From Candidatus Methanofrustulum fimipullorum (GTDB lineage: Archaea > Halobacteriota > Methanosarcinia > Methanosarcinales > Methanosarcinaceae), in the NCBI GenBank assembly GCA_012518265.1, contig JAAYST010000015.1, positions 1-43,586 of the forward strand: a stretch of DNA of 43,586 bases, written 5' to 3'. Below, in pieces: positions 30,560 to 43,586 of this stretch. Each line of letters starts with the position of its first letter. The stretch's first letter is position 1. The notes below the pieces were generated by a model. It did no database searches. It worked only from the letters and a program-made list of their open reading frames with translations, and was not told where the DNA came from. The translations under genes and the position numbers were made by a program.

Positions 30560-31200
30560 GCTTTCGTTTTTTTCTTTAATTAAAATTTCCATCGTCCATT
30601 TTTTTTCTTTAATTGGAATTTCCGCAGTCCATTTTTTTCTTTTTATCGCGGCGCTTTTTAGGATTTTTCGGGCGTTCGTTTTTGTTTTTAAAGAGATCCC
30701 CTAGCATTCGTTTTTTTTATTTCCAATAAAAACCGATACGCTGCTTTATTTCTTTAATTGAAATTTCCGTCGTCTTTTTTTTCTTTTTGCGCGGCGCTTT
30801 TTTAGGATTTTTTGGTCGTTCGTTTTTTTTTGTTTTTGAATAGAAACCCTAGTATCCGTTTTTTCTTTTATTTTCAAGAAAAACCGATATGCCATTTTTT
30901 TTTAATTGAAATTTCCGTTGTCCTTTTTTTTTCTTTTTTGCGCGGCGTTTTTTTAGGACTTTTCGGGCGTTCGTTTTTTTGTTTTTGAAGAGAACCCCTA
31001 GCATCCGTTTTTTATTTCCAACGAAAACCGATACTTCGTTTTTTTCCTTAATTGAAATTTCCGTTTTCCTTTTTTTCTTTTTGTGCGGCGTTTTTTAGGA
31101 TTTTTCGGACGTTCGTTTTTTTGTTTTTGAAGAGAACCCCTAGCATACGTTTTTTATTTCCAACGAAAACCGATACTTCGTTTTTTTCCTTTTACTTTTT
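30560..31200. repeat. array of about four 145-bp tandem repeats, undescribed
   Basis: The landmark CCGATA recurs at 30733, 30884, 31028 and 31170 (intervals 151, 144, 142). Each unit contains, in order, AATTGAAATTTCCG, CGCGGCG, TTAGGATTTTTCGGGCGTTCG, GAACCCCTAGCATCCG and TTTCCAACGAAAACCGATAC, joined by T-runs. The two copies nearest the copA end are most alike; the first is most degenerate. All frames are closed, and it lies between convergent rpl10e and copA. It resembles neither CRISPR nor an ORB-type origin that I know. Confidence 0.88.
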
Positions 31201-31210
31201 TTATTTTACT

Positions 31211-31867
31211 TTATATCTCCTTTCTTTTCATTAACAACGAATTCGTTGTTACCGAAATTGAACTTAGAGCCATAAACGCCGCAGCCATTTCCGGTGTTAT
31301 TAAAATGGTTTTCGTAAGCGGAAACAAAATTCCTGCCGCAATTGGAATTCCAATTGAGTTATAACAAAGCGCCCAAAACAGATTTTGTTTTATTTTACGA
31401 ATTGTAAGTTTGCTCAATTCGATTGCTTTTAAAACGTCTTTCGGGTCGTTTTTAATTAAAACAACGTCTGCCGTTTCAATTGCGACATCAGTTCCGGCTC
31501 CCATTGCTATTCCAACATCCGCTTCGGCAAGTGCGGGAGCGTCGTTTATTCCGTCTCCGACCATTGCAACGATTTTTCCTTTATTTTTAAGTTCTTTTAC
31601 TTTTTGGGCTTTAAATTGAGGCATCACTTGAGCAATCACATTTTCTTTTTTGATTCCCGCAATTTCGGCAATATTTTGAGCCGTTCCTTCATTGTCTCCA
31701 GTTAGCATATATGTTTCAATTTTTCTTTTGTTAAGAGCTTCTATCGTTTCTCTTGCAGTTGATCGAACCGTATCGGCAATTGCAAACATTGAAATTAAAT
31801 AATTATCAAAACCTGCCAAAACTACAGTTTTTCCTTCTTTTTCAAAATTCTCTTTTGTTTGCTTTTC
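31211..31867 (-). CDS. copA: copper P-type ATPase, C-terminal part beyond an in-frame TAG
   Basis: This continues in the same frame as the next entry after one TAG. It holds the end of the nucleotide domain (EGKTVVLAGFDNYL), the P-domain hinge MLTGDNEGTAQNIAEIAG and MVGDGINDAPALAEADVGIA, and the last two membrane helices (QNLFWALCYNSIGIPIAAG and AAFMALSSISVTTNSLL with the conserved MxxSS). If translated alone it could start only at TTG 31819 inside the domain and would not be functional. 218 residues follow the TAG. The frame is fully open and conserved, so the break is either recent or read through. Confidence 0.85.
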   Translation of the reverse strand, partial: EKQTKENFEKEGKTVVLAGFDNYLISMFAIADTVRSTARETIEALNKRKIETYMLTGDNEGTAQNIAEIAGIKKENVIAQVMPQFKAQKVKELKNKGKIVAMVGDGINDAPALAEADVGIAMGAGTDVAIETADVVLIKNDPKDVLKAIELSKLTIRKIKQNLFWALCYNSIGIPIAAGILFPLTKTILITPEMAAAFMALSSISVTTNSLLMKRKEI

Positions 31868-31870
31868 CTA
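31868..31870 (-). other. in-frame amber codon in copA
   Basis: On the minus strand the codons read CTT TCC GAT TAG GAA AAG CAA. The reading frame before and after is the same CopA frame. The site is a variable loop in the nucleotide-binding domain, between [11 protein letters not shown] and EGKTVVLAG. Confidence 0.9.
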
Positions 31871-34045
31871 ATCGGAAAGAATAATGTTGTATTCCGACAA
31901 AAATCTTTCAGAACCGATATATACTTTTTTCAAACCGTAATTAAAACCGACAAAATCAATTTCTACATCACCGCTCACACCTTTTCCTGCATGAGAATTG
32001 AAATTTTGCACAGAAAGTTTCTTTTCATTCGTTTTACTTAATTCTTTCGTTTTTTTCATGATTGCTTTTGAAATCGGATGCTCCGATTTCTCTTCAATTG
32101 CAGCAGCAATTAAGAGTGCATCGTTTTCACTTATTTTGTTAGTATAAATATCTGTCACAACAGGTTTTCCTTCTGTTAAAGTTCCCGTTTTGTCAAAAAT
32201 AACAGCATCAATTTCATTAGTTCGTTCGAGTGATTCTCCTCCTTTGAATAAAATTCCTCTTTCGGCTCCCATTCCGGTTCCGACCATAATTGCGGCGGGC
32301 GTTGCAAGTCCCACAGCACAAGGGCACGAAATAATCAAAACGGTAATTGAAACCAGAAGCGAAAACAAAAACGGAGTAATTCCTTCAAAAGATTCTTGTG
32401 AATTTACATTAAAGTATTCAAATCCTATAAAATACCAAAACAAAAAAGCAACGATTGCGACTATAAAAACTCCTACTATAAAGTTTCCGGCAACTTTGTC
32501 AGCAATTCTTTGAATTTTCGGCTTTTTAGTCTGCGCGTCAGACACAAGTTGAATTATTTGAGAAAGAGTCGTGTCTTTTCCTACCTTTTCCGCTTCAAAT
32601 CTTATATAGCCTGTCAAATTTACGGTAGAACCTATTGCCGTATCTCCTACTCCTTTTTCAACAGGCATACTTTCCCCGGTCAACATTGACTCGTCAACAG
32701 TCGTATTTCCGTAAATGATTTTTCCGTCGACCGGTATTTTTTCTCCCGGTCTTACAGCTAAAACATCACCAATTTTTACGGAATCTGTAGGGATTTCAAT
32801 TTCATTTTCGTTTTCTGTTACCAATCTGCTCGTCAAAACTTTCATATCGAACAGTTTTTCAATTGATTCTGTTGTCTTACTCATCGATTTTGCTTCAAGA
32901 TATTTTCCAAGCGAGACAAAAATTATAATCATGGCGACAGTTTCGTAGTAAAGACTTTCATATCCCGGTCCCAAATCAATAAAAGTAGATATAACACTTA
33001 CCAAATACGCGCATCCCGTTCCGGTTGCAATCAAAAGATCCATATCGAAAAGTCCGGTTTTTAGACTTTTTACGGCACCTGTAAAATATCTTCTCCCCGG
33101 GAATAATATAATCAAAGAAGTTAAAATGAAAAGCATGTATTTACTTGCAAGAATTTCCGGAACAAACCAAAAGCTGTCGCTCATATGTTTCATGCTTCCC
33201 AAAATTACGGGAATTCCTAAAATTAATGATAAAATAAAATTTCGCTTTTGAATTTCATCGTTTCTCTTACTCGCATCTCTTCTTCTCGTTTCCTCATTTT
33301 CTCTTTCGGACTCTTCCACGACAAAAGCTTCATATCCTATATCATCAATCGCTTCTTTAAGCAGTTTCGGATTCGTTTTTCTCAAATCGTAATATACGGT
33401 TGCTTCTTTCATCGGTAAATTAACGGTTGCATCCTTTACCCCGTCAATCGATTTAAGCACCTTTTCAACATTTATTGCGCATGCGGCGCAAGTCATTCCG
33501 TTTACTTCAAGAGTTGCCAAACTCGTCCCGTCATTTCCTTTTAAATTATTTTCCGATTCCTTTCCGTTTTTTTCGTTTTTTTCATTCTTTTCAAAATCTT
33601 CAACAATTGCCTCATAGCCTGCGTTATCAATTGCTTTTTTCATAACGTTTGGCTCAACTTTTTTGGAATTGTAAAAAACAGTTGCTTTTCCAAGCGGCAA
33701 ATTAACCGAAGCATTGTTTACGCCGTCTATCACCGTTAGTATTTTTTCAACATTGAGAGTGCATGCGGCACAAGACATTCCGGAAATGTGAATATCAACC
33801 TTTTTTTCTGTGACAAAATTTTCCGGCAGATATCCTTCATCGGAAATTATATTTTTAATGTCTTTGATATCTATTTCGTTTTCATCGTATTTTACGAAAA
33901 CCTCTCCGTAAATTTCATCCGGATTTTCGTCATTTAGAACTATTTTTACAACATCAATTCCTTTTGTTTTTTCAAGTGCGTTTTTTACGACAGATACGCA
34001 ATGCCCGCAAGTCATGCCGCTTACTGCGAACTTTTCGCTTTTCAT
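31868..34045 (-). CDS. copA: copper-exporting P1B-type ATPase, N-terminal part up to an in-frame TAG
   Basis: 725 residues of a CopA. Three heavy-metal-binding domains come first, with GMTCGHC (about residue 13), [15 protein letters not shown] and [15 protein letters not shown]; the second and third look like recent duplicates. Membrane helices follow, with the A-domain [10 protein letters not shown] (about 455), the ion-binding [18 protein letters not shown] (about 573), the phosphorylated [16 protein letters not shown] (about 617), and SEHPISKAI with the HP dipeptide. Between domains 2 and 3 is a N/K/E-rich insert. The frame then meets TAG at 31868-31870 and continues open as the entry at 31211. 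With readthrough the protein would have 944 residues including the amber position. No Shine-Dalgarno of note precedes ATG 34045; the promoter region holds inverted repeats. Confidence 0.93.
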
Positions 34046-43459: not shown

Positions 43460-43465
43460 TTTTTT

Positions 43466-43586
43466 ACATTTTGCTTTTTTACATTTTGCTTTTTTACATT
43501 TTGCTTTTTTACATTTTGCTTTTTTACATTTTGCTTTTTTACATTTTGCTTTTTTACATTTTGCTTTTTTACATTTTGCTTTTTTA
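43466..43586. repeat. 15-bp tandem array (ACATTTTGCTTTTTT), eight copies, running off the end
   Basis: The unit repeats without visible error from 43466 to the last base, eight copies plus one base. It continues beyond the window, so its total length is unknown. Confidence 0.95.

Follow-up and report, generated by a model that had tools for sequence, protein, structure and literature searches.

The single in-frame TAG in the copper-ATPase gene copA of Candidatus Methanofrustulum fimipullorum most likely specifies pyrrolysine (Pyl) rather than a premature stop, and UAG appears to serve as a sense codon throughout this genome (a "Pyl code"), a reading to which we assign a probability of about 0.9. 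In the mechanism that we propose, PylBCD would make pyrrolysine, PylS would charge tRNA-Pyl(CUA) with it, and ribosomes would read UAG as Pyl in copA, in MtmB, and in at least eight other recognizable genes. The predicted copA product is the entire copper pump of 944 residues, in which residue 726 is Pyl, an outcome that an initial annotation of the locus had entertained and that the complete pyl cluster and the practical absence of TAG as a terminator now support. Near-complete purging of TAG as a terminator would make UAG a sense codon genome-wide, and once TAG stops are gone, a base change that creates TAG at a tolerant site, probably neutral, could persist. Standard annotation would label copA as broken or truncated along with nine or more further conserved genes (those for MtrA, fumarase, and Elp3 among them), while copA and the other TAG-bearing conserved genes probably encode intact Pyl proteins.

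The copA Frame Is Intact on Both Sides of the TAG

The window (the whole stretch of DNA analyzed, 43,586 nucleotides) belongs to a Methanosarcinaceae assembly of 1.51 Mb in 108 contigs that is 81% complete. The copA frame (Table 1) opens with an ATG at 34045, reaches the TAG after 725 codons (31870–31868), and continues for 218 codons to a TAA at 31211. The codons around the TAG on the minus strand (CTT TCC GAT TAG GAA AAG CAA) and their coordinates agree with the initial annotation of a frame open on both sides, with no frameshift and zero bases gained or lost at the TAG. Pfam recognizes three HMA domains, E1-E2_ATPase, and Hydrolase, the last as one unbroken match to PF00702 (residues 612–843, E = 2.5e-39) that runs across codon 726 and bears out the earlier description of the flanks as family-like. 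All family motifs (HMA domains, CPC, DKTGT, TGD, GDGINDAP, and SEHP) are present by sequence and Pfam. The nearest solved chains are copper ATPases (e.g., 3j09, 3rfu, and 8q73); the protein has the same complete domain set and motifs as these CopA Cu(+) ATPases and differs from them in one residue that is predicted to be pyrrolysine. In the predicted structure, the ATP-binding part has a mean pLDDT of 90, and residue 726 comes second in a helix (residues 130–141 of the model) that follows a loop.

The copA TAG is the sole TAG terminating any ORF of at least 150 aa in the window, which, together with the conserved 218-residue continuation, argues that it did not arise by chance. No significant RNA structure of the PYLIS-like hairpin kind was found after the copA TAG (z = −1.07), and PYLIS is dispensable (PMC2933860). 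Directly downstream of copA, a 142-base unit recurs about four times as an array (window 30600–31188), and a perfect 15-base repeat of 8.5 copies (window 43460–43586) runs off the contig end. A second P-type ATPase (L015), flagged as having internal stops, proved to contain an uninterrupted ORF of 801 aa from a different subfamily and was set aside.

Table 1. Positions of copA, its in-frame TAG, and other genes with predicted Pyl codons (window positions unless a locus is given)
Feature	Position	Strand	Remarks
copA, Cu(+)-exporting P1B-type ATPase, 944 aa with TAG as amino acid	31211..34045	-	Pfam, PDB relatives
In-frame TAG, codon 726, predicted pyrrolysine codon	31868..31870	-	Inside single PF00702 match
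copA part 5′ of TAG, 725 aa	31871..34045	-	Metal-binding domains, CPC, DKTGT
copA part 3′ of TAG, 218 aa + TAA stop	31211..31867	-	TGDN, GDGINDAP, last membrane helices
Fumarase alpha, two in-frame TAGs	L119:9145-9996		Predicted Pyl
MtrA, one in-frame TAG	L083:13430-14200		Predicted Pyl
Elp3, one in-frame TAG	L095:301-1980		Predicted Pyl

The Genome Carries a Complete Pyrrolysine System

The search for pyl genes that the initial annotation had proposed located all five on contig C13, where pylT-pylS-pylB-pylC-pylD form a complete cluster in canonical order, as in other Methanosarcinaceae, in which pylTSBCD is an uninterrupted cluster (PMC9499178). ARAGORN places tRNA-Pyl, with its CUA anticodon, at L001:822-891 just upstream of pylS, and no other CUA tRNA occurs in the 0.99 Mb examined. 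The pylS product scores 336 bits against a curated TIGR02367 cut-off of 178, and pylS was found in 100/112 genomes of the family. The pylB, pylC, and pylD ORFs were named from gene order and sequence reading rather than by family scan; a Pfam PylC-like_N scan gave no match despite the presence of the pylC ORF, which is probably a matter of model sensitivity. MtmB (725 bits) has one in-frame TAG of the classical kind both here and in the sister genome, the only genus mate, where the classical in-frame TAG of MttB was seen as well. The features by which a pyrrolysine-decoding genome is recognized, namely tRNA-Pyl(CUA), pylS, pylB/C/D, and a methylamine methyltransferase with an in-frame TAG, were all found here.

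TAG Is Nearly Lost as a Terminator

The initial annotation had noted that TAG is rare as a stop where pyl genes occur, and this holds for the present genome. The 994,715 bases examined (two thirds of the assembly) hold 764 non-overlapping ORFs of 100 aa or longer. The terminator is TAA in 514, TGA in 235, and TAG in 15 (TAA or TGA in 749/764), and intergenic composition would predict ~82 TAG stops among 749. Twelve of the 15 TAG-ended ORFs continue in frame for 50–278 codons. Possible true TAG terminators number at most three: the end of a PPK2 gene, an ORF in a repeat array, and an ORF resembling a non-coding frame. The PPK2 gene, the one recognizable gene among them, may end in TAG two codons ahead of a TAA. 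The share of TAG among terminators is thus at most 0.1–0.4%, compared with ~4–5% in Methanosarcina and 1.6% in Candidatus Methanomethylophilus alvus (PMC4153887). As a positive control, TAG ends 5/53 CopA or aRF1 genes of relatives.

Loss of TAG stops appears to extend to the sister genome, which has pylS and tRNA-Pyl. In 163,663 bases at 51% GC, we counted 93 TGA, 25 TAA, and 3 TAG ends, the last comprising one MttB and others resembling non-coding frames, so that the stretches examined contain zero credible TAG stops. AT-richness alone is therefore not the cause of TAG-stop loss. Within the single genus to which both genomes are assigned, GC content in the stretches examined goes from 33.5% here to 51% in the sister, and the value here lies below the 41–44% of gut-clade isolates (PMC11362671).

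A terminator share so far below those of Methanosarcina and Ca. M. alvus points to efficient decoding of UAG and weighs against ambiguous decoding, in which some ribosomes would insert Pyl at UAG and others would terminate, giving a 725-aa fragment beside the full-length pump at a ratio that perhaps varies with methylamine supply. We consider such mixed decoding a possibility at clearly less than even odds; it is a milder form of the pyrrolysine reading that overlaps with it rather than opposing it. A Methanosarcina acetivorans reporter with an introduced UAG yielded 20–30% full-length product (PMC2933860), in line with incomplete decoding. The release factor aRF1 of this genome also retains NIKS, so some UAG termination is possible, and decoding efficiency is the main remaining uncertainty. 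Residue 54 of aRF1, just before NIKS in the stop-recognition motif, is Val both here (L186) and in the sister genome (L191): QAANIKS/QASNIKS has become QVANIKS in both species of the genus, and Ala occupies this position in all 18 other aRF1 compared. This Ala-to-Val change could lower UAG termination. It is an improbable, speculative extension that the genus turned UAG into a pure sense codon aided by the altered aRF1.

Family Matches Extend Across TAG in Conserved Genes

With TAG translated as a residue, Pfam matches run across it in ten genes: CopA, Elp3 (GNAT domain), DinB, RfcS, fumarase, MtrA, a RibD-type reductase (RibD_C), PHP, a TIM-barrel enzyme, and MtmB. Both in-frame TAGs of fumarase alpha are spanned by the family match. 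A double-PPK2 protein has its TAG between its two domains, and TAGs also occur outside any spanning family match in a radical-SAM protein, MtrC (N-terminal tail), an HNH protein, and a membrane protein. Some conserved proteins carry low-complexity inserts of Asn, Lys, Glu, and Ser (L119:7274-8536, L050:5406-6851, and window 33540-33600); examples are the Asn-rich N terminus of DinB and the STNFED repeated in a radical-SAM protein.

We aligned CopA with 34 relatives, including that of the genus mate, and all 34 have a sense codon at the TAG position. The initial annotation had placed the TAG in a variable loop tolerant of an extra residue. The segment around it is indeed longer by one residue than its counterpart in CopA of Methanosarcina, but the relatives do have a residue in the TAG column, L in 26 and otherwise V, A, I, or T. 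In the 108 Methanosarcinaceae genomes that yielded a CopA match, the other CopA matches listed have no in-frame TAG. Residues 727–944 have a median identity to relatives of 0.600, compared with 0.608 for residues 400–620; deviations at near-invariant columns are 18/113 after the TAG and 50/218 upstream; and the two sides have similar GC at each codon position. By these three measures there is no sign of decay or relaxed constraint after the TAG, in keeping with the earlier observation that the last 218 residues keep GDGINDAP and the final membrane helices.

Were the copA TAG a premature stop leaving CopA truncated and inactive, the fresh-pseudogene branch of the initial annotation, ten simultaneous fresh pseudogenes would be needed to account for ten conserved genes, MtmB included, that are interrupted alike. 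Restriction of the TAG to this species, among the matches listed, suits a nonsense mutation so recent that it has left no further damage. The intact frame and normal downstream conservation speak against a pseudogene, and we judge this reading very improbable in a genome where essentially zero genes end at TAG and where a pyl operon supplies the sole CUA tRNA. Still less probable is an assembly or sequencing error at a sense codon; the genome is fragmented and one wrong base would be enough, but the other conserved genes carry in-frame TAGs of a like kind, and errors striking at random should produce TAA and TGA as well. Least probable of all is a split gene, in which the part after the TAG would be translated separately from an internal start (a TTG-start ORF of 202 aa lies at 31819–31211) to give a two-chain pump; against it, the break would lie inside the ATP-binding domain, no ribosome-binding site is apparent by eye before the TTG, and 0/34 aligned relatives have a split CopA.

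Relation to Known Pyl Systems

Kivenson et al. reportedly described such a system in Science in 2025 under the title "An archaeal genetic code with all TAG codons as pyrrolysine". This "Pyl code", as reported, shares with the present genome a pyl operon, virtual absence of TAG as a stop, and in-frame TAG in many non-methyltransferase genes; the case here is known from sequence alone. Both sequence hallmarks of the code, TAG unused as a terminator and in-frame TAG in many unrelated conserved genes, are found in the two thirds of the assembly examined, and the pattern matches this already known kind. UAG here seems to be a regular sense codon, not a stop under suppression, and the genome brings in one more lineage with apparently complete reassignment of TAG. 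Ca. M. alvus, of a different order, has 16 predicted Pyl proteins beyond methylamine methyltransferases (Borrel et al. 2014, PMC4153887) and likewise makes low use of TAG stops, but its TAG terminators persist while almost none do here.

Among the aligned relatives, the predicted Pyl codon of copA is specific to this species, which counts against the pyrrolysine reading insofar as the codon itself has no conservation to support Pyl. From a sense codon in every aligned relative, the genus mate included, we infer that the predicted Pyl of CopA is recent and probably neutral. Thg1 of M. acetivorans offers a parallel: its in-frame amber occurs in one species only, is translated as Pyl, and is not needed for activity (PMC2933860). 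Both are one-species amber gains in a housekeeping gene; the proteins differ, and Pyl was physically shown in Thg1 whereas in CopA its insertion is predicted. The copA case illustrates how neutral Pyl codons may build up in housekeeping genes after TAG termination is lost. In a relative of another genus (G011; L158 and L159), three ORFs of ~370–410 aa stop at TAG and continue in frame for 381–618 codons, possibly encoding long Pyl proteins.
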